The notes beneath the pieces are model-generated. The model saw only the letters and a list, made by a program, of their open reading frames with translations, ran no database searches and was not told the origin of the DNA. Positions 53,126-63,867 of a stretch of 64,000 nucleotides of DNA are shown here, piece by piece (the first letter of the stretch is position 1; the number at the start of each line of letters is the position of its first letter). Source of the DNA: Candidatus Kryptoniota bacterium. Lineage in GTDB: Bacteria > Bacteroidota > Ignavibacteria > Kryptoniales > Kryptoniaceae. The position numbers and the translations under genes were made by a program. The stretch spans positions 1 to 64,000 of the forward strand of contig CALJEK010000031.1 of NCBI GenBank assembly GCA_938074445.1, in the 5' to 3' direction.

Positions 53126-55813
53126 ATGTTCTTTAAATTTAGATACGTCCAGAAACTTTTAAAAGTGAAAATGAGAGCCAAACTACTTATCGCCTCCTTA
53201 ACATCGCTCATTATTTTAGCACTTGAAACGGCAAAAATTCCATTCCTTGAAAATTTAGATTCATCCTTCAAACAGCTGAAGTTCACACTTCGCGGACAAC
53301 AACAGGTTGACACGTCAATTATCTTTCTTTATATCGATGATATCGCAATTCACACCCTTGGTGGTTACCCTTTGAAGCGAAGCTATTATGCGCTCCTTAT
53401 CGATTTGCTTACCCAATTAAATGTAAAAGCAATCGCATTTGACATACTTCTATTGGATAAAAACCCAGATTATCCAGAGAGAGACAATCTTCTCATTTCA
53501 ACAATAGAAAAATCAAAAAGAGTTTATCTTGGCGGAAGCTTTACAAATTTCGAAAAGTCAACTCACGATACGCTCCAACCTTCGAAAATTCTGCAGAAAT
53601 TTTTAATATCCTCAAATGATAAAAAATTAAATTTCCTTAAAGGCTCAAACTTCCTTGCACCATTCGATGAATTACTTCAAAGTTGCGCAGGGCTGGGTCA
53701 CCTAAACTACATCCAACGCGATTTCCCCGAAGAAATCCCATTGCTTGTTCAATTCGGGAAAAACCAATATCTGCCATCACTTTCGCTCGAACTCGCAAGA
53801 ATTTATTACGAAACCCCGAAAGATTCAGTGAAGATTTTTAAAGATGAAATTCAACTTGGAAACTTTAAAATCCCCACCAAAAACGGGAAAATACAGATAA
53901 ATTACAGCGGTGGAGTAGATGTTTTGAAAATGTATTCCGCTTTAGACTTTATAAAATCTTATGACGCGCTTAGATCTGGCTTTGAGCCGGAAATTAACCT
54001 TGGAGAGTTTAAAAATAAGATTGTGTTCATCGGAATTTTCAGCGATGTCCTTGGACAAACGCTCAAAAGCCCATTCCAAGATAAATTCCCCGCCACAGGG
54101 ATTCACATAATGACATTAAACACCATCATCCAAAGAAAATTTATATTTGAAACCACGCCAGTTTTTAACTTTGCCCTATCTTTAATTTTTTCAATCTTAA
54201 TTCTACAACTCATCTCGATGCGAAACTTTAAAAACATTTTTAGATTCGGGTTCTTCCCTATAACTGCGCTTTCACTATTCTTAGTGCTTGTCCTTTTCTC
54301 CTTCGCACTTGGAATTTCAATCCCAATTTACCCAATTCTTACCGCAATCGCATCAGCATTTCTGGGGATGCTCTATGTTTTTGAAATTGAAAGGAAGAAA
54401 ATGATTGAAATCGAGAACGAGAAAAAGAAAATTGAAGAAATGATAAAAGAAAAGGAATTGGAAATAATCGAACTACAAAGGGAGATTGAAAATTTAAAGG
54501 TTGCTGAAGATAAAGCAACTGCGCTCTCAAACCTTGAGAAAACTTACAATGAGATAAAAGAATTAACTTCTAAATTTGAAGACCTATCTGAATTCACCGA
54601 ACCTGAAAAAACGGAAAAGGCTGAGTTCGAAGGTATAGTTTATTCAAAGGGCGGAAAAATGGAAAAAATAATTTCAGATGTAAAGAAAGTTGCATCATCA
54701 GATGTGCCAATCCTGATAACGGGAGAAAACGGGGTTGGCAAAGAGCTAATCGCAATGGCTATACATAAATTAAGCAAAAGAAAAGATAAAAAATTCATCG
54801 CAATAAATTGTTCAGCAATACCAGAAACACTGCTTGAAAGTGAACTTTTCGGATATGAAAAAGGAGCCTTCACCGGAGCAACACAACAAAAAAGAGGGTT
54901 ACTTGAAACCGCCGATGGTGGGACGATCTTCCTCGATGAAATTGCAGAAACAAGCGAATCTTTTCAGGCGAAAATTTTAAGATTCCTTCAATCTGGAGAA
55001 TTTAATAGAGTCGGTGGAACTGAAACCTTAAAAGTTGACATTAGAATTATCGCTGCAACAAATCGCGATATCGAGAAAGCTATAAGAGAAGGTAAATTTA
55101 GAGAAGACCTTTATTATAGGTTAAATGTCGTCAGAATCCATATTCCACCTTTGCGCGATAGAAAGGAGGATATTCCTTTTCTCGTTGGATATTTTTTGAA
55201 AAAATTTAAAGCTGGTGATATGAAAGTTTCACACGGCGTTATGAACGCATTTTTAAATTACGAATGGCCCGGAAACGTTCGCCAACTTGAAAACGCCATA
55301 AAAAGGGCAATTATATTCGCAAAATCAGAAGATAGAAATCTAATCCAAATTAAAGATTTGCCCGAGGAAATCGCAAGAGTAGCAAGAGGAAAAGAAAATA
55401 TTGAGGAAAAAATTCTAAACTTACTTAAGGCGAAAAAATTCTCGCACAGTGCAATTTCTGAAACCGCCAGTGAACTTGGTTTGAACAGAGGGACTGTAAG
55501 TGAGTATCTCCGGGGAATATGCTTTAAAAATTTATACGAGTGTGAATTTGATATCGACAAAGCATCTGTGAAAATAGCTGGAAATGACGTCGAAGCTGTT
55601 GAAAAGATAAAGAAAAAAACCCTCGAATACATCCAAAACTTCATAGAAACCATCAACCAATGCAAATCTGAAGACGAAATCAAACCACTGATTAAACTAA
55701 AATACAAAAACCTTCCAATGAGATATCATTTTTACCTTGAGGAATTCGCTTTAAAATTTCGCCGAGGCGATCTCCCCTTGGAAAAATTAAATCTAAATGA
55801 TTGGAACCCCTAA
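53126..55813 (+). CDS. Membrane sigma54-dependent activator with CHASE2 sensor domain
   Basis: An N-terminal membrane helix (AKLLIASLTSLIILALETAKI) is followed by an extracytoplasmic CHASE2 domain (about residues 40-340; SIIFLYIDDIAIHTLGGYPLKR, VKAIAFDILL, KNKIVFIGIFSDVLGQ), three more helices (to FLGMLYVFEI), and a coiled coil. The sigma54-interaction AAA+ domain follows: Walker A GENGVGKEL, GAFTGA loop in EKGAFTGATQQKRG, FLDEIAE, RIIAATNRDIEKA. The C-terminus has a Fis-like or other helix-turn-helix (ASELGLNRGTVSEYLRG) and a further 100 residues. No receiver or kinase domain is present. The ATG at 53126 is preferred over the TTG at 53111. A sigma54-type promoter lies 72 bases past the stop. 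Confidence 0.92.
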   Translation: MFFKFRYVQKLLKVKMRAKLLIASLTSLIILALETAKIPFLENLDSSFKQLKFTLRGQQQVDTSIIFLYIDDIAIHTLGGYPLKRSYYALLIDLLTQLNVKAIAFDILLLDKNPDYPERDNLLISTIEKSKRVYLGGSFTNFEKSTHDTLQPSKILQKFLISSNDKKLNFLKGSNFLAPFDELLQSCAGLGHLNYIQRDFPEEIPLLVQFGKNQYLPSLSLELARIYYETPKDSVKIFKDEIQLGNFKIPTKNGKIQINYSGGVDVLKMYSALDFIKSYDALRSGFEPEINLGEFKNKIVFIGIFSDVLGQTLKSPFQDKFPATGIHIMTLNTIIQRKFIFETTPVFNFALSLIFSILILQLISMRNFKNIFRFGFFPITALSLFLVLVLFSFALGISIPIYPILTAIASAFLGMLYVFEIERKKMIEIENEKKKIEEMIKEKELEIIELQREIENLKVAEDKATALSNLEKTYNEIKELTSKFEDLSEFTEPEKTEKAEFEGIVYSKGGKMEKIISDVKKVASSDVPILITGENGVGKELIAMAIHKLSKRKDKKFIAINCSAIPETLLESELFGYEKGAFTGATQQKRGLLETADGGTIFLDEIAETSESFQAKILRFLQSGEFNRVGGTETLKVDIRIIAATNRDIEKAIREGKFREDLYYRLNVVRIHIPPLRDRKEDIPFLVGYFLKKFKAGDMKVSHGVMNAFLNYEWPGNVRQLENAIKRAIIFAKSEDRNLIQIKDLPEEIARVARGKENIEEKILNLLKAKKFSHSAISETASELGLNRGTVSEYLRGICFKNLYECEFDIDKASVKIAGNDVEAVEKIKKKTLEYIQNFIETINQCKSEDEIKPLIKLKYKNLPMRYHFYLEEFALKFRRGDLPLEKLNLNDWNP

Positions 55814-55884
55814 ACCCAGCAATTTTCAAGTAAAACCCAGCATTTTAACAGGAAATTCTACATTGAAAAACAATCAATTTTTTC

Positions 55885-55900
55885 TGGCATTACAGTTGTT
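55885..55900 (+). promoter_or_regulatory. Sigma54 (-24/-12) type promoter
   Basis: TGGCATTACAGTTGTT fits the sigma54 consensus TGGCAC-N5-TTGCT, with GG and GT ten bases apart; the one weak position is T for C in the -12 GC. It is between the sigma54 activator gene and the envelope operon, 51 bases before the lipoprotein start codon, leaving a leader of about 40 bases. Enhancer sites for the activator are not evident. Confidence 0.72.
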
Positions 55901-55950
55901 TTATATATAAGTGTGAACGCAAAAACAAAACAAAATTTAAGGTTGTCGCC

Positions 55951-56750
55951 ATGCTAAAAAAATTATTTCTCCTCGGCTTAATTTCGATTGCAATTATAAT
56001 CAAATTATAATCAATGGATGCACAAAAGGAACAGAGCCATCAGAAACAACCGCAGTCCCAATTGAACTCAAAGCAGTAGGTGAAACATCGGGAAATATAA
56101 CCTTTGCAAAAGCAGCTGGTCAAGTTGACTCAATAAAGATTGATTTCGCTATACTTGTTCTCCGATGGATTCAATTTAAACAAAATATCGACACTGTTAA
56201 AGAAGACTCCCTCTGGGATGACCACGATATGAATAGGATGCGGGAAAAGATGAGGAAAATGGATAATGACCCAACTATAAGATTTAAAGGACCCTTTTTC
56301 GTAACATTGAGAAATAATGAACCGACGCCGATTGCTGTTGATAGCCTTCCACCCGGAAATTACAATGGTATCAAATTTAAAGTTCACGCTATTGTCCCCT
56401 ACGATTTACAGGTAAATCCCGCAGTTCCAGACTCGTTCCTCGGCAAGAGCATTTATGTTAAGGGTCAAATCTATCAAAATGGCGCATGGAAAGAATTCAT
56501 CTTTACAACCGGAAAGGTTAACACCGAGTTCAAGATCAAAGGAGATTTCACAATTACGGAAACGGATAGAAATATCCCGTACGTACTTGTTTTCGATTTG
56601 AATTCCTGGTTCATAGAATTGAATACAGGGAGATTACTTGATCCGAATGACCCTGGAGATCAGGGTAAGATAATAAGCAACATCGTTGCTTCATTGAAAA
56701 ACAAAGCGCGCGGTGGTAAGGATAGAAATAGAGATGGCAAACCAGATTGA
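55951..56750 (+). pseudogene. Lipoprotein gene (DUF4382-like) interrupted by an 11-bp tandem duplication
   Basis: The ATG at 55951 opens MLKKLFLLGLISIAIII and stops at TAA after 19 codons. In the frame two bases off, NGCTKGTEPSETTAVPIELK continues without a start codon and without a stop to 56750. Exactly at the switch the bases AATTATAATCA occur twice in tandem (55992-56002 and 56003-56013). Removing one copy restores a single frame with signal and lipobox IAIIINGC. The body (FKGPFFVTLRNNEPTPIAVDSL, PGNYNGIKFKV) resembles DUF4382 outer-membrane lipoproteins. The ORF track only shows 56229-56750 because no start exists earlier. It is either a real (possibly switchable) mutation or an assembly error. 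Confidence 0.85.
55992..56013. repeat. Exact 11-bp tandem duplication causing a frameshift
   Basis: AATTATAATCA appears twice back to back inside the signal-peptide coding region. Eleven is not a multiple of three, so copy number sets the reading frame: one copy is in frame, two copies are out. Confidence 0.9.
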
Positions 56751-56772
56751 GCGCTGAGGGCGCAGTTCACCC

Positions 56773-56809
56773 AGTGCAAGTCCCGGGCTATCCGGGCTTG
56801 CACTTTTTT
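56773..56809 (+). terminator. Rho-independent terminator with U-tract
   Basis: GTGCAAG and CCCGG pair with CCGGG and CTTGCAC (one bulged T, five-base loop), followed by TTTTTTG. It should end the sigma54 transcript after the broken lipoprotein gene, unless read-through occurs into the next lipoprotein gene 46 bases on. Confidence 0.9.
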
Positions 56810-56854
56810 GTTTGAAATTATAATTTGATTGTGAAAGACACAGAATAGCAGAAA

Positions 56855-57739
56855 ATGAGAAAGGTCTTTTACATAATAATCGCCTTAGCATTGATAGGAT
56901 GCGGTAAAAACTCGCTGATAATAACGCCAGAAGAAGATGAAAAACTTAATGTCGAGGTTATTTACCTTGACGAAACTGAGCCAGTTGTTGAGTTTCTTAA
57001 TTCAGCACAAACTGGTCTTTTAACATCCGAGATGATGAATTCTATGGGTTTAATCGTGTTAAGCTACTCTCAGTTTGTTTCCGAATTAGGCAATAAATAT
57101 GACACAACCTTAGCTTATGCACTTTTTCGCGATGCCCAATCCCCGCCAATAATTATGGGACGCTGGCGTGAAAGGAAAGGGCTTGACATTGGGGATCTTT
57201 ACCTCGAAAATATAAAACTTGAAAAATCACAGAGAAAAATTAAAATTCCATCGCAACACCCAAGAGTTGACCCAAGCTACGGTGTGGAGTATAAGTTTAA
57301 AGCGACAAACTTTGAGTTCAAACACTCCGCAAAACATAAATTTAAAATTATCACTAAATCAGGTAGCGAATTTTTCTTTGAATTAGATACACCTGACAAA
57401 AAAGAGATTGACGACTTACCGAAATACGACGGTGAAAACTTAAAATTTAAATTTAAATTAAAAACTGACACCTTGACCATAGTTATAAACGTTCCCTTAC
57501 CAGGTGAAGATGAGTTTACTATGAAGCCAGTCATAATGTTAAAATTTAAAAACTTGAATAGCCCCAAAGTTCAGATCGGTTCCGAAATTTTAAGGCTTAT
57601 ACCGGATGAATACAAGCAAAATTATCTTATATTCAGCATAGTTCAAAAATATCAAAAAAGTGTAAATGTTCCTGGCTATTCAGAAAATGCCGTCGCTTTC
57701 GTGTCATCAACACTTTATTTTAAAGTGAAGTTAAGATGA
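56855..57739 (+). CDS. Lipoprotein of unknown function
   Basis: MRKVFYIIIALALIGCGKNS is a lipoprotein signal with Cys16. The 294-aa body is beta-rich (VEYKFKATNFEFKHSAKHKFKIITKSG, KFKFKLKTDTLTIVINVPLPGED) and may hold two Ig-like or jelly-roll-like sandwiches; I recognise no family. It precedes the barrel-transglutaminase gene, overlapping it by four bases (ATGA), so the two are coupled. It may be an outer-membrane partner of that protein. Confidence 0.78.
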   Translation: MRKVFYIIIALALIGCGKNSLIITPEEDEKLNVEVIYLDETEPVVEFLNSAQTGLLTSEMMNSMGLIVLSYSQFVSELGNKYDTTLAYALFRDAQSPPIIMGRWRERKGLDIGDLYLENIKLEKSQRKIKIPSQHPRVDPSYGVEYKFKATNFEFKHSAKHKFKIITKSGSEFFFELDTPDKKEIDDLPKYDGENLKFKFKLKTDTLTIVINVPLPGEDEFTMKPVIMLKFKNLNSPKVQIGSEILRLIPDEYKQNYLIFSIVQKYQKSVNVPGYSENAVAFVSSTLYFKVKLR

Positions 57740-59718
57740 AACTGCGCCTTTTCGTTTTATTTTTTACAGCGCTCAATCTGGCCGTGACGCAAAATTTAAC
57801 ATCGCCACAGGCAACTGCTGTTGCTAGTTTTTCAACATTTGCAAATTCTGCTTTGTCATCGGCAGTGAATCCAGCAGGTTTGATGAGAATTTATGACTGG
57901 AATATAGGGCTAACGGGTTACTACAAAATTTATTCTGGCACTAAAATGCACTCAATCGGAATAGCAAAAAGACTTACGGAAACGCAAAGCCTCGGGTTTA
58001 TTTACTCCCCAGGTTCGAGCATTGAATTTGTTTTTCCATCGATCTTGTCAATAAATATAGGGAATTCCATACTAAACGCCGAGTTTCAGCGAAAAATAAC
58101 TTATTCCGCAAATTATACCCTTGCATATGCCTTACGACTTTCGAACAAAATCTCACTTGGCTCATTAATCCAATACATTTCTCAAAATCTCATTGAAACT
58201 GGCTATAAAATTCAACCAACGGATTCGCTTCCGCAAGTAAGTATAGAAACAAAACAATACAGTTCTTCCCACTTGAGTTCTAAAATCTCATTGCTTTATG
58301 AAGTCACTTCAAAAGTATCATTTGCTTTACTGCTTGAAAACTTATCACTTCGACTTAAAAAGTTCCCAGAACAATTTAGAAACTTCGAATTCGAAAATAA
58401 TTTTAAAGTTAAAACCGCAGTAGGGCTGGATTTTAGAAATTTAAAATCGGGCATTGAAATCTCATCTATTGGTGAATCGCATGCCGGAATTGAAGCTCAA
58501 CCGATTAAAAATTTATTTTTTAGAGGGGGGTTGTTTTCTGAGAAGGGGAAACTTAGCGGTTTCTCAACTGGGCTCGGATTTAGAAGTGGGCTCTTTCAAT
58601 TTGACTTGGCTTATTTTAGAAACACATCAGATATTTGGAGGGATGGGAAGTTAACGCAAGATGAATTTTTTAAAAAACTTGTAAAAAATGCCGAGTTCGA
58701 AAAATTTGCTAAAGATGAAATCACGTTTTCAATTTCAGTTGATATGAGCAAATGGCATGAAAAAAGTTTACGAATAAAGAACCTCGCGATTAAAGATGAG
58801 GTCTTTCCGCATATGCTGAGTAACTTTGAAAAAAGAAATATAGGCTCAGTTGAGATTGAAAATATATCTAACAAAGTTTTAAATGCAAAGATTGATTTCA
58901 AGCTTTCCTACCCTGTTGAAATTGAAGCTGAGCCGAACGAATTTGAAATAAAACCAAACGAGACAAAAACGATACCAATTTCAATATCACTTGGGACAAT
59001 TAATCCGGAAAACAACGAGCCAATTAAAATTAATGCTTGGCTAAATGTTAAATCGTCAAGCAACATTTCAGATGAAGTTAAAAAGTTTAAAATTCTTTTG
59101 CGCGGTCGAAACGATTGGAATGGAAATGTCGAAGAGCTGAAATTTTTCTTGAGATTTGACTCTCCAGAAATCTCTTCATTTGCCAGGAAAATAATTTGGG
59201 AACGCAAAGACACGCTCGAAAAGATAGATCCAATGTTAAGGAAATTTTATCAGGCAAAATTTATATTCGATGAACTCTCTAAGCACATAATCTATGTAAG
59301 CGATCCAAGCTTAAGCATAGATAAAGTTCAATTTCCGGAGGAAACACTGAAGCTTCGCACAGGTGATTGTGATGACCTTGCAATTTTATATGCGTCTCTA
59401 CTTGGATCAATTGGGATTAAAGTGGCTTTTGTCGATGTCAAAGATTTAAGAGAAATAAACGAATCACACGTCTATATCATCTTCGACTCCGAGATAGACA
59501 AAAAATTTGTTCAGGCTATAACAAGTAACGAGAAAAAATACATTATTATAAAAAACGAAAATGGAACTGAAACCGCATGGATCCCTATTGAGACAACACT
59601 TGTTCACGAGGGATTTGATAAGGCTTGGGCAACGGGAGCTGAGCAGTTTTTCAATGACTTTGAACTCAATCTTGGACACACAAAGGGAAAAGCTAAAATC
59701 GTTTTCATTGAAAAATAA
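57736..59718 (+). CDS. Outer-membrane barrel fused to Ig-like and transglutaminase-like domains
   Basis: A signal peptide (MKLRLFVLFFTALNLAVTQ) leads a PorV/UPF0164-like barrel (about residues 20-310; ALSSAVNPAGLMRIYDWNIGL), an Ig-like region (about 370-460; NFEKRNIGSVEIENISNK, NEFEIKPNETKTIPISISL) and a transglutaminase/cysteine-protease-like domain (about 510-640). The catalytic Cys is in RTGDCDDLAILYASLLGSIG (C545) and the His in ESHVYIIFDS (H578); the third residue would be in WIPIETTLV, with Glu where Asp is usual. The barrel may hold the enzyme at the outer membrane with the catalytic domain in the periplasm or outside. ATGA overlap with the lipoprotein gene. Confidence 0.85.
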   Translation: MKLRLFVLFFTALNLAVTQNLTSPQATAVASFSTFANSALSSAVNPAGLMRIYDWNIGLTGYYKIYSGTKMHSIGIAKRLTETQSLGFIYSPGSSIEFVFPSILSINIGNSILNAEFQRKITYSANYTLAYALRLSNKISLGSLIQYISQNLIETGYKIQPTDSLPQVSIETKQYSSSHLSSKISLLYEVTSKVSFALLLENLSLRLKKFPEQFRNFEFENNFKVKTAVGLDFRNLKSGIEISSIGESHAGIEAQPIKNLFFRGGLFSEKGKLSGFSTGLGFRSGLFQFDLAYFRNTSDIWRDGKLTQDEFFKKLVKNAEFEKFAKDEITFSISVDMSKWHEKSLRIKNLAIKDEVFPHMLSNFEKRNIGSVEIENISNKVLNAKIDFKLSYPVEIEAEPNEFEIKPNETKTIPISISLGTINPENNEPIKINAWLNVKSSSNISDEVKKFKILLRGRNDWNGNVEELKFFLRFDSPEISSFARKIIWERKDTLEKIDPMLRKFYQAKFIFDELSKHIIYVSDPSLSIDKVQFPEETLKLRTGDCDDLAILYASLLGSIGIKVAFVDVKDLREINESHVYIIFDSEIDKKFVQAITSNEKKYIIIKNENGTETAWIPIETTLVHEGFDKAWATGAEQFFNDFELNLGHTKGKAKIVFIEK

Positions 59719-59733
59719 AATTAGGTGTTTAAA

Positions 59734-60453
59734 ATGATACGTAAAACTTTAAGCCCGTTGATTTTAATACTTCTGTTTCTTTCGTCTGCACTATCAAAAG
59801 AAAATTCTGTTTACAAAGTAAAAAAATTAAACGGAACTGCGCAAGTAAGACATGGAACCAGCGAAGTATGGAAAACACTTTTAACTGGGGATACACTTCG
59901 ACCGGATGATACAATTTTTTTGGACAAGAACGCGTATATTGAAATAGTGGGAAATGAGGCATTCTTTAAATCAAACGGTAGCATAGTTGTTAACATCTCC
60001 GATTTAAGGCGATTAACAAAGGAAGAACTTTTACTACAACTTGCTTTTGAAGAAATGAAATCTTCCCCAGAGGTGAAGCGAAGCAAGCCGAGCACAAGGT
60101 CAACGGGAATTTATGGGGCTGATGTTGAAAAGGAGAAAACTAAGTTAAAATCTGGCTGGGATTTAGCCAAGTTTTGGGCTAATGGTGTGAGGGCTCTTTT
60201 TGAGAATGGCTTCTATGAAACAGCAGCGATAAGGGCTAAAAATTTAATGTCAAGATTTGACGAGTTAAAAGACGACATTGAGTTGAAAATGATAATCGCT
60301 ACATCACTTGAAAAACTTGAACTTTACGGAGAGGCAATCTCAGAGTTTAACAAAATAATTTTAACATCAAAAGACGCGAATTTAAATTTTAAAATTGAAA
60401 GAAAAATTCAAGAACTTAAGTCAAAACTTGCGTCTTTAAGGGAAAAACGATAA
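59734..60453 (+). CDS. FecR-like domain and helical-repeat protein
   Basis: Signal peptide (MIRKTLSPLILILLFLSSALS), then a FecR-like beta domain (VKKLNGTAQVRHGTSEVWKTLLTGDTLRPDDTIFL, then ALYVELVG-like FLDKNAYIEIVGNEAFF), and a C-terminal helical region (AANGVRALFENGFYETAAIRAKNL, EAISEFNKIILTSKD) that looks like one or two TPR-type units. I use the ATG at 59734 in preference to the GTG at 59725. It follows the transglutaminase gene by 15 bases and probably belongs to that operon; no TonB or ECF partner is here, so it is not a classical FecR regulator. Confidence 0.8.
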   Translation: MIRKTLSPLILILLFLSSALSKENSVYKVKKLNGTAQVRHGTSEVWKTLLTGDTLRPDDTIFLDKNAYIEIVGNEAFFKSNGSIVVNISDLRRLTKEELLLQLAFEEMKSSPEVKRSKPSTRSTGIYGADVEKEKTKLKSGWDLAKFWANGVRALFENGFYETAAIRAKNLMSRFDELKDDIELKMIIATSLEKLELYGEAISEFNKIILTSKDANLNFKIERKIQELKSKLASLREKR

Positions 60454-60476: not shown

Positions 60477-60776
60477 ATGAAATTAACGCGCTGGGATAAA
60501 CCACACAAACCAAATGTTGAGGAACTTAAGAGCATACTTCGTTCAGAAGGGATGACGCCTTACATTTGGATGGATGAACCGGGAACTTATTATGGTAATC
60601 ACTCTCACGCTTTTGATGAGGTTCGCTGGATTGTGAGCGGTAAGATGAGATATGGCGTCAAAGATGAGGAATTTGTTCTCGGTCCTGGAGATAGACTTGA
60701 TCTTCCGGCGGGGACAATTCATTGGGCGAAAGTTGAGGGAGACGAACCGGTTTTTTACTTATGCGCTTCGAAATGA
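60477..60776 (+). CDS. Cupin domain protein
   Basis: A 99-aa single-domain cupin. The two cupin motifs are GNHSHAFDEVRWIVSGKMRYGV and GDRLDLPAGTIHWAKVEG, with His and Glu residues that normally bind a divalent metal. Small single cupins of this form can be metal-dependent enzymes or sugar-binding proteins; the substrate is unknown. It follows the FecR-like gene by 23 bases and ends exactly at the csrA stop on the opposite strand. Confidence 0.85.
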   Translation: MKLTRWDKPHKPNVEELKSILRSEGMTPYIWMDEPGTYYGNHSHAFDEVRWIVSGKMRYGVKDEEFVLGPGDRLDLPAGTIHWAKVEGDEPVFYLCASK

Positions 60777-61032: not shown

Positions 61033-61428
61033 TTATCCGAATAAAAAATGAGATATTTCAAAATCAGCATTTTCAAGTATAACCTGCTTACCTAAATTTT
61101 TAACCTTATCGATTACAACTGGTGCCTTTAAATTAACGCTTATTTTTGAAATATCAGAGCTTAATGTCACTATCACGAAAAGAGCGTAAACTTTGGGATC
61201 AAACCCAGCACGAATATAATAATCTCGAACGATGAAAGAGGGTTCGAGAATCGCGAAACCAACCTCGGGTTCATCAACTGAAATTAACCAACGAAATGGT
61301 TCACAGTCCTCGTCTTGTATTATGATAAACCTTTTCAAATCTTCAAATCCTATTATCCCCTCAGGGAAATTAATTATTATCTTCTCCTCGAATTCAACTT
61401 CTCCGAATTGTGAGTTTTTTATCTTCAT
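61033..61428 (-). CDS. fliW: Flagellar assembly factor FliW
   Basis: FliW binds CsrA and flagellin in a partner switch. The 131-aa protein has the FliW motifs FPEGIIGFEDLKRFIIIQDE, PFRWLISVDEPEVGFAILEP and KVYALFVIVTLSSD, ISVNLKAPVVIDKVKNLGKQV. A GGAG ribosome site lies ahead of the ATG. It is 15 bases after motB and 28 bases before csrA. Confidence 0.94.
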   Translation of the reverse strand: MKIKNSQFGEVEFEEKIIINFPEGIIGFEDLKRFIIIQDEDCEPFRWLISVDEPEVGFAILEPSFIVRDYYIRAGFDPKVYALFVIVTLSSDISKISVNLKAPVVIDKVKNLGKQVILENADFEISHFLFG

Positions 61429-61443
61429 TTCATCTCCAAAACT

Positions 61444-62190
61444 TTAATTTGAAATTTTTCCAAGCACTCCACTTTGAGTTGAAACTATAACTATATCAAC
61501 CCTTCTATTTTTTGCTCTGTTCTCCTCAGTATCGTTCGGTGCAATAGGTTTATACTCCGAGTGCCCAACAATTGAAATTTTCTCCGGGGGAACACCTTTG
61601 CTAATCAAATGATATGCTGTGTTTAAAGCTCTTGCAACTGAAAGGTGCCAGTTTGATGGAAATCTTACAGTATTGATCGGTTTGTTATCCGTATGTCCCT
61701 CAACTCTTATTTTATTTGGTAAAAATTTTAAAATTTCAGCAAGAGTGTCAAGAACCGCCTTTGCCTCCGGTTTTAAATCCGCGCTCCCCGATTCAAAAAG
61801 TAATCTTTCTAGAAGATGAATTGTTAAACCTTCCGTAGATGTTGTTATTATTATTTTCTTTGATTGAATGTTGGAGCTTAAAATCGCGCTGATCTGAACC
61901 TCAAGGTTTTGTTGACGTGGCAATTGAGATGAACTCGCAATCGCATCTGAACTTGATTTCGGAGGCGTTGGAGCTACAAGGATACCTTTGCCACCAGCAA
62001 GAACACCACTGCCTCCGAAAAGTTGGCTAAAAGCCGAGACCCACTGTTGATACTTGTTCAAATCAATTTGCGACATTGAATAAAGAACGACAAAAAGTCC
62101 AAGAAGAAGCGTGATAAGGTCAGCGTAAGTTATAAGCCACCTTTCAAGATTTTCGTGCTCCTCACCATGTTGCTTTTTTCTTCTTGACAT
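61444..62190 (-). CDS. motB: Flagellar motor stator protein MotB
   Basis: MotB has one membrane helix with the proton-conducting Asp (D24 in LITYADLITLLLGLFVVLYS), a plug/linker, and an OmpA-like peptidoglycan-binding domain (AVLDTLAEILKFLPNKIRVEGHTDNKPI, then RAKNRRVDIVI). 248 aa is normal. It is one base after motA. With MotA it forms the stator; whether H+ or Na+ is used cannot be read here, though other Na+ transporters occur in this window. Confidence 0.95.
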   Translation of the reverse strand: MSRRKKQHGEEHENLERWLITYADLITLLLGLFVVLYSMSQIDLNKYQQWVSAFSQLFGGSGVLAGGKGILVAPTPPKSSSDAIASSSQLPRQQNLEVQISAILSSNIQSKKIIITTSTEGLTIHLLERLLFESGSADLKPEAKAVLDTLAEILKFLPNKIRVEGHTDNKPINTVRFPSNWHLSVARALNTAYHLISKGVPPEKISIVGHSEYKPIAPNDTEENRAKNRRVDIVIVSTQSGVLGKISN

Positions 62191-62191
62191 A

Positions 62192-62977
62192 TCAAATTTC
62201 TATTGCTTGTTCACTTATTGGAAACATTGAATAAAGCTTTGTTTTAATTATTGTCGGAACTTCACCGGCTTGAATCGCAAGGACACCTTCAACGATAATT
62301 TCAAGCAAAATTTTCTCCTCAGCATGGATTGATTTTAACCTATCTGAAATCGGAAGCCAAATGATATTTGCAGAGAATACACCCCAAAGCGTCGCTATAA
62401 AGGCACTTGCTATATGACGAATTAATTCATTCGGGTCGCCCCCAGCATTTGCAAGCGTTGAAATTAACCCCATAACTGTTCCAATTATCCCCATAGTCGG
62501 TGCATATCCGCCCATCTTCTGAAATACCATCGCATTTGTCATATGTCTCTCGGTTATATAATTTATCTCAATATCTGCAATCTCCCGAATTGTCTCGGGA
62601 TCGGTTCCATCAATCGCAAGGCGTAATATCTTTTTCAAAAATGGATGCGATATATTGTTAACCTCTTTCTCAAGTGCAAGGATTCCGTCTTTCCTTGCTA
62701 TAATTGCAAAATTCACGATCAAGTCAACTGTTTCAACTATATTAAATTTTGGCGGGAAAAGCGCAAGTTTTATAAAGCTCGGAATTCTAAAAAATATCTT
62801 CGCAGGTGAACCAATCATAGCCGTTGCAATCGTCCCACCAAAAACAATAAGCATTGCCGGAATTAAAATTAAAGCACCAAGTGTTCCCCCTTCAAGCAAA
62901 AATGAACCAAAAATTGATAACACACCAAGTATGAGTCCAACGATAGTTCCAAATTCAAAGTTTGAACTATTTTTCAT
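62192..62977 (-). CDS. motA: Flagellar motor stator protein MotA
   Basis: A four-helix protein of 261 aa. FGTIVGLILGVLSIFGSFLLEGG, the cytoplasmic loop with IREIADIEINYITERH, and MGGYAPTMGIIGTVMGLISTLANAG and HIASAFIATLWGVFSANIIWLP are typical of MotA/PomA, including the conserved Pro-containing APTMGIIGT helix. Its start overlaps the flgL stop by four bases; motB follows after one base. Confidence 0.95.
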   Translation of the reverse strand: MKNSSNFEFGTIVGLILGVLSIFGSFLLEGGTLGALILIPAMLIVFGGTIATAMIGSPAKIFFRIPSFIKLALFPPKFNIVETVDLIVNFAIIARKDGILALEKEVNNISHPFLKKILRLAIDGTDPETIREIADIEINYITERHMTNAMVFQKMGGYAPTMGIIGTVMGLISTLANAGGDPNELIRHIASAFIATLWGVFSANIIWLPISDRLKSIHAEEKILLEIIVEGVLAIQAGEVPTIIKTKLYSMFPISEQAIEI

Positions 62978-63867
62978 CTTAGATAATCAATAATTGTTTT
63001 TTGAACTATCTTTCCGGCAATTTCGTAAGCCGATTCAAGAATTAATCTATCCCTTTGCAAATTTATTGCTTGTTGAGCTACGTCTGTATCCTGGCGAAGC
63101 GATAAAATCTCCTTTAAAATGATGTTCTGCTTCTCAATTTGCTTCTGCAAGAGCAAAAATCTATTCATTAAAGCCCCGACATTCGATGCTTGACTTGTGA
63201 TAAAGTCGAAAATTTCGCCAAACCTTTGTAAAAGCAAATCATTCGGTCTTACCCTATCTCTTAAAGAATTTTTTATCTGAAGTATCAAATCGAAAACCTC
63301 CCGCCCGCCAAACAATTCTTCAACCGTGAAATTAACTTTTTCGTAAACCCCATCGTTAACCTCGAATTTTATCACACCGTTAGATAAGTCTGCGCTCAAA
63401 AAATCTGTGCTTTCATTGTAATTAAATGGCTTCACGTTTGTTTTTGTCCCATTGAATATGTATTTCCCCTTAAACTTCGTATTGGCAGAATCAAGCAATT
63501 GTTTGAACAGCTCATTCAACCTGTTAGCATATGTTTGATAATCTGGCTGTCTGGATGGATTCGAAATTTCAACAAGCAATGTCTTAATCTCCGTTAAAGT
63601 ATTAATAAAATTATCAACAGCGTCCTCAGTTGCCCTCAAAAAATCAATCGCATCATTTATATTTTTTTGAAATTGCTCGTTTCCACTTATCATACTTCTC
63701 AAACTCATCACAGAATTTGCGACATACGGGTCATCCGAAACAGCGTTGATATTTCTACCCGTTGCAATTTTAAGTTGGGTTTCGTTAAACCTTTCTCTAG
63801 TTCTGTTTATGTTTTCGATTAAGTTTTTTATAACTGTTAACTCAGTAACTCTCATAATTTCACTCAA
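62974..63867 (-). CDS. flgL: Flagellar hook-filament junction protein FlgL
   Basis: A 297-aa flagellin-like protein: MRVTELTVIKNLIENINRTRER and IATGRNINAVSDDPYVANSVM at the N-terminus, and NIILKEILSLRQDTDVAQQAINLQRD at the C-terminus form the flagellin D0/D1 helices, with a short centre. It is the HAP3 adaptor between hook and filament. It follows flgK after six bases and precedes motA with an ATGA overlap. The N-terminal motif distinguishes FlgL from flagellin in this setting. Confidence 0.92.
   Translation of the reverse strand: MSEIMRVTELTVIKNLIENINRTRERFNETQLKIATGRNINAVSDDPYVANSVMSLRSMISGNEQFQKNINDAIDFLRATEDAVDNFINTLTEIKTLLVEISNPSRQPDYQTYANRLNELFKQLLDSANTKFKGKYIFNGTKTNVKPFNYNESTDFLSADLSNGVIKFEVNDGVYEKVNFTVEELFGGREVFDLILQIKNSLRDRVRPNDLLLQRFGEIFDFITSQASNVGALMNRFLLLQKQIEKQNIILKEILSLRQDTDVAQQAINLQRDRLILESAYEIAGKIVQKTIIDYLR

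Follow-up and report, generated by a model that had tools for sequence, protein, structure and literature searches.

A CHASE2-sigma54 activator and its candidate lipoprotein promoter at an envelope-gene locus of a Kryptoniota bacterium

Genes and proteins of the locus

The window (the whole stretch of DNA that was analysed, 64,000 nucleotides from a Candidatus Kryptoniota genome) carries a locus in which the gene for a membrane-bound sigma54 activator is followed by genes for two lipoproteins (LpA and LpB), for a barrel protein with a transglutaminase-like domain (Tgl) and for a TPR protein. Its features are listed here, with the grounds for the assignment in brackets where there are several:

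53171–55813, plus strand: activator gene (Pfam, alignment, a stop upstream in the sister genome, hydropathy)
55814–55846, plus strand: tandem direct repeat ACCCAGCAATTT...ACCCAGCATTTT, candidate activator site, or UAS (genus conservation, genome-wide uniqueness, class-wide layout)
55885–55900, plus strand: candidate −24/−12 promoter, TGGCAT-N5-TTGT (genus conservation, strand-biased boxes in related loci)
55951–56750, plus strand: lipoprotein gene LpA (weak DUF4382), frameshifted here
55992–56013, plus strand: 11-bp tandem duplication, AATTATAATCA twice, in the signal-peptide region of LpA (absent in six of six congeners)
56773–56810, plus strand: predicted intrinsic terminator between LpA and LpB (hairpin conserved in congeners despite sequence change)
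56855–57739, plus strand: LpB, lipoprotein of unknown fold (lipobox Cys)
57736–59718, plus strand: Tgl, with a signal peptide, FadL/PorV-type outer-membrane barrel, Ig-like domain and transglutaminase-like domain
59725–60453, plus strand: TPR protein (periplasmic), with a signal peptide, small beta (retention/FecR-like) domain, helix, linker motif and TPR

From its N-terminus, the activator consists of a transmembrane segment, a periplasmic CHASE2 domain, a transmembrane bundle, a coiled coil, a sigma54 AAA+ domain with its lid, and an atypical HTH with a C-terminal helical domain. Pfam matched CHASE2 (E 4e-31), Sigma54_activat (E 1e-71) and AAA_lid_14 on this one chain, the GAFTGA loop is intact in both the translation and the alignment, and hydropathy shows CHASE2 flanked by one N-terminal and by C-terminal transmembrane segments, which is the layout of a CHASE2 receptor. 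Kinase and receiver domains had zero matches in the Pfam scan of the chain, so the protein does not classify as part of a two-component system. Pfam, hydropathy and the GAFTGA loop thus agree with the preliminary description of a single membrane protein that joins CHASE2 to a sigma54 AAA+ domain with neither kinase nor receiver. The same scan left the activator C-terminus unmatched by the Fis-type HTH_8 that is usual, though not obligatory, in sigma54 activators; an atypical HTH is conserved there among homologues, and we found no convincing PDB relative for this domain. The reading frame is open from 53111/53126, and since a stop lies 5′ of the ATG at 53171 in the closest relative, that ATG is probably the true start. 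In one relative (G002) a frameshift near residue 525 breaks the activator gene in two (L042:5533-7847). A single copy of rpoN is present in the source genome and the gene was also found in 20 of 20 relatives searched, so the proposal does not fail for want of rpoN. Judged by sequence, the AAA+ domain with GAFTGA, rpoN, and a candidate UAS and −24/−12 box at the target are together those of a sigma54 enhancer-binding protein.

Two lipoproteins had been described after the activator, and both genes do follow it, although the first is broken in this genome: the 11-bp duplication shifts the lipobox out of the frame of ATG 55951. LpA is intact in six congeners, and here its mature part (56016–56747) is intact in its own frame. 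Because the coding part is still 93% identical to the sister protein, above every other gene of the locus, the break would be recent or an assembly error. Treating LpA as a single class-wide family was tried and dropped, the Kryptonium LpA being DUF4382-like and most others resembling another family.

LpB matched no known domain, and its lipobox Cys is invariant in 28 homologues. The predicted structure of Tgl (pLDDT 86) consists of a FadL/PorV-type barrel, an Ig-like domain and a transglutaminase-like domain, and PF01841, matched in 44 of 45 homologues, places the protein in the transglutaminase-like superfamily; the barrel-Ig-transglutaminase architecture first read from the sequence was thereby confirmed. 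C545 and H578 are invariant and E619 is nearly invariant among the 45 homologues. The barrel fold is shared with PorV/FadL outer-membrane proteins, to which Tgl adds the Ig and transglutaminase-like domains, and its match to the NCBIfam PorV family falls below the cut-off. As for the TPR protein, originally described as FecR-like/TPR, the model (pLDDT 90) shows a small beta domain followed by a helix, a linker and the TPR part, which accords with the general architecture, whereas the FecR assignment was not upheld: Pfam FecR (PF04773) matched 0 of 40 homologues, and a FecR profile alignment was weak (prob 16%). A structure match with the whole protein returned only generic TPR.

Promoter, tandem repeat and terminator

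The sequence TGGCATTACAGTTGTT (55885–55900) matches eight of the ten core positions of a −24/−12 promoter. The corresponding box of the sister genome, TGGCACGATAATTGCA, is perfect, and a box 5′ of LpA is kept across the genus although the flanking DNA diverges. The near-consensus promoter that had been proposed is therefore present and conserved, although the copy in this genome, at 8/10, deserves that name only roughly. Counting boxes with at least 9/10 matches in the 3.6 kb that precede Tgl in the named loci gave 29 on the coding strand against 2 on the opposite one, and the sigma54 boxes upstream of Tgl cluster before LpA in the named related loci. The strict TGGCACGNNNNTTGCW was dropped as proof by itself, being unspecific (22 genome matches at ≤1 mismatch, 1 in the control).

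In Kryptonium the units of the tandem repeat, which lies directly past the activator stop, are 21 bp apart (ACCCAGCAWTTT). This repeat is conserved in seven congeners and, in each of those seven genomes, is the sole copy at 0–2 mismatches. Across the class the layout is one of TTCCCGCACTT pairs, 21 or 22 bp apart, and of 40 activator loci, 21 have a tandem UAS no further than 420 bp from the activator stop, against two matches in 1.33 million strand-bases elsewhere, one of which again precedes LpA (L061). In Melioribacteraceae-type loci the pairs read TTCAGGCAWTT, TTCCATGCA or CAGGCA pairs occur in several loci that lack a neighbouring activator, and some related loci have no recognisable −24/−12 box or repeat. 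The version of the repeat varies with the HTH of the activator, such that CCCGCA pairs with NRGTVAEY (SRGTVAEY in L070), CAGGCA with an RTxVSEN-type HTH and CCCAGCA with an HTH shorter by one residue; this covariation tracks clades and hence is not fully independent evidence.

Where activator and lipoprotein genes have come apart, the position of the repeat is informative. In Ignavibacteriaceae-type loci without a neighbouring activator, tandem repeats of the same layout are still found before LpA; in G164 the activator lies 0.9 Mb off, and a tandem repeat still precedes LpA; and in L061 (activator displaced) and L130 (activator on the other strand) the repeat stays upstream of the lipoprotein/Tgl genes. 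Because it stays with these genes in L061, L130 and G164, we assign the repeat to the target. The same observation bears on whether the cluster is merely co-inherited, with the activator governing other genes. Such an arrangement would accommodate the activators without Tgl in G010, G019, G026 and G195, as well as the additional UAS sites elsewhere in two genomes, each of which has one extra tandem site with a −24/−12 box (G031:C65:88426-88455, L135; G169:C57:71914-71943, L136). These precede genes for two secreted proteins, one with a beta-lactamase fold and one with CarboxypepD_reg, both with type IX secretion tails. Given that the UAS precedes LpA even with the activator displaced, and that it is near-unique genome-wide, we consider mere co-inheritance highly improbable.

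LpA is separated from LpB in every genus member examined by a strong hairpin and a subsequent T-run, while the sequence varies, and a terminator-like hairpin was present at this junction in 38 of 53 related loci having both genes, in a scan run without a shuffled control. In view of this terminator, sigma54 probably yields mainly LpA, with LpB-Tgl-TPR transcribed separately or by read-through. The preliminary description had instead drawn a single sigma54 operon through to the FecR/TPR gene, in which the activator would drive LpA, LpB, Tgl and TPR jointly as an envelope-remodelling effector set. All genes of the locus are indeed co-directional, LpB and Tgl overlap, Tgl and TPR are 6 bp apart and the gene order is conserved, all of which would suit such an operon. 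However, it would have to run through an intrinsic terminator that is strong in the genus and has a counterpart in most loci, and in some loci of other classes activator and Tgl overlap, so that they can share a transcript without a sigma54 site between them. On balance, we hold the single operon to be rather unlikely.

Conservation and periplasmic partners

The order activator-LpA-LpB-Tgl-TPR is kept in those members of the genus (Candidatus Kryptonium group) that have intact contigs, and the genes are also together across much of the class. Among 197 class genomes, Tgl was found in 47 (truncated at a contig end in one), the activator in 51 and both in 45 (Fisher p about 3e-35, kinship ignored); six genomes have an activator without a full-length Tgl match, some of them incomplete or with the gene at a contig edge. 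When both genes are on the same contig they are adjacent, that is, within 3.4 kb, in 32 of 35 pairs. The 80 named loci found through Tgl have a TPR gene in 79 cases and an activator upstream on the same strand in 40. In further classes of the phylum, the activator gene either overlaps Tgl or shares a cluster with it and with lipoprotein genes. Homologues of the activator thus do adjoin lipoprotein and transglutaminase genes in relatives, a comparison that could have overturned the proposal.

In distant relatives (loci L039, L041 and L043) the genes upstream of the activator encode a TPR-type protein or lipoprotein, a DUF4292-like lipoprotein and an EnvC-like coiled-coil protein (names read from the sequence); genes of this type are absent from that position in Kryptonium. 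Behind the locus, a small cupin gene (60477–60776) is syntenic in three genus genomes, and fliW, motB, motA and flgL (61033–63867, minus strand) adjoin the locus and are conserved there in three congeners.

CHASE2 also occurs with other outputs next to comparable genes. One CHASE2 cyclase of the source genome adjoins a second transglutaminase protein (Tgl2, TPR/transglutaminase; C22) and another lies one gene from a true FecR gene (C33), the two loci being L131:6294-11156 and L132:5177-11312; adjacency of Tgl2 and CHASE2 was seen in 14 of 18 genomes. Since CHASE2 tends to accompany such periplasmic partners whatever its output, we infer that LpB-Tgl-TPR lies on the CHASE2 input side.

Certain resemblances suggest one form that this input might take. 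The beta domain of the TPR protein resembles the cell-surface anchoring domain 5ix9 (structure match, TMt 0.73) and weakly matches the NCBIfam LapA retention module. After the helix, a low-confidence linker carries a T-x-[VI]-[HY]-G motif, the G of which is present in 39 of 40 homologues. The profile of Tgl weakly matches chain 4u65_E, a 'putative cystine protease' that we take to be LapG. In a Lap-like switch, the transglutaminase-like domain of Tgl would act as a protease on the beta-domain/TPR protein, cleaving it at the linker motif, and the cut would set CHASE2. The succession of helix and motif would then parallel the module, helix and cleavage site of LapG substrates, LapG cutting its adhesin after the retention module and targeting helix (PMC13090378), and both systems place a transglutaminase-like domain in the periplasm together with a beta domain of the retention type. 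We nevertheless consider this switch doubtful: every match is weak in sequence and the fold resemblance moderate, the apparent triad of Tgl is C-H-E rather than C-H-D, and Tgl is fused to an outer-membrane barrel, whereas LapG is a barrel-free periplasmic protease. The giant adhesin and LapD are likewise absent from the locus, a Pfam scan of the locus's own genes having found no LapD-type c-di-GMP receptor.

Proposed circuit and described systems

Taken as a whole, the sequence evidence makes it likely that the locus is a dedicated one-component switch, in which the activator directs sigma54 transcription of LpA and LpB-Tgl-TPR are conserved envelope partners. The activator would sit in the inner membrane with CHASE2 facing the periplasm, and, once CHASE2 is switched, a signal would reach the AAA+ ring by way of the transmembrane bundle and the coiled coil. 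With the C-terminal HTH on the tandem repeat just downstream of the activator's own gene, the ring would remodel sigma54-RNA polymerase at the −24/−12 box and thereby start transcription of LpA, which the terminator past it would make the main product. The three closely packed genes LpB, Tgl and TPR may be expressed as a unit by read-through or by basal transcription of its own; the encoded proteins would form the outer-membrane/periplasmic part, feeding CHASE2 or processing the cell surface. Direct binding, the direction of the signal, a ligand and the role of the transglutaminase domain are the elements of this scheme that we infer, and the envelope-remodelling role suggested by the protein types is putative.

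The link between sensor and target had first been put forward tentatively. It is now strongly supported by neighbourhood, co-occurrence, the −24/−12 box and a UAS that covaries with the HTH and stays with the lipoprotein promoter. Sequence comparisons also support the assignments of promoter, UAS, terminator and domain make-up; the part of the preliminary description that gave way is the single operon through the TPR gene.

Like sigma54 bEBPs of the NifA/NtrC/PspF/ZraR type, the activator has an AAA+ domain with GAFTGA, a lid, an upstream site and a −24/−12 promoter; unlike them, it spans the membrane, has CHASE2 in the same chain, an atypical C-terminal domain in place of a Fis-type HTH, and direct-repeat sites. 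CHASE2 adenylate/guanylate cyclases share the sensor domain, with a cyclase as output rather than sigma54 transcription. The nearest described arrangement is a CHASE2 histidine kinase with a LysM-FecR gene in Burkholderia (BiofilmReg; PMC5192318), where, as here, a CHASE2 sensor gene adjoins a periplasmic FecR-type gene. Its output is two-component, whereas in our locus the sensor itself bears the sigma54 activator, kinase and receiver are absent, and a barrel-transglutaminase and lipoproteins are added. Among the papers covered by our literature search, none mentioned CHASE2 together with sigma54 (RpoN), and a one-protein cell-surface signalling circuit with its own DNA target is apparently undescribed. 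Its parts are of known kinds; what is new is that they are combined with a dedicated target site that covaries.

CHASE2 occurs widely as a sensor, and no ligand of it is known (PMC5192318). Paired with one dedicated, near-unique promoter, it could be read out through a single reporter, which would make the ligand question testable. The locus would also add to the sigma54 activators a receptor-type one that spans the membrane and is conserved across a Bacteroidota class, and the circuit fits the proposal that sigma54 controls the bacterial exterior (PMC3162934).

A more far-reaching scheme, hitherto undescribed, would be surface sensing in three layers, in which an outer-membrane barrel with a periplasmic transglutaminase-like protease cuts the conserved linker motif of the retention-domain/TPR protein, the cut switches CHASE2, and CHASE2 directly fires sigma54 transcription of the surface lipoprotein and, in some lineages, of surface proteins exported by type IX secretion. 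The input kit would then recur with cyclase output. This is speculative, and in its full form we think it unlikely. The source Kryptonium genome encodes 47 type IX secretion tails.
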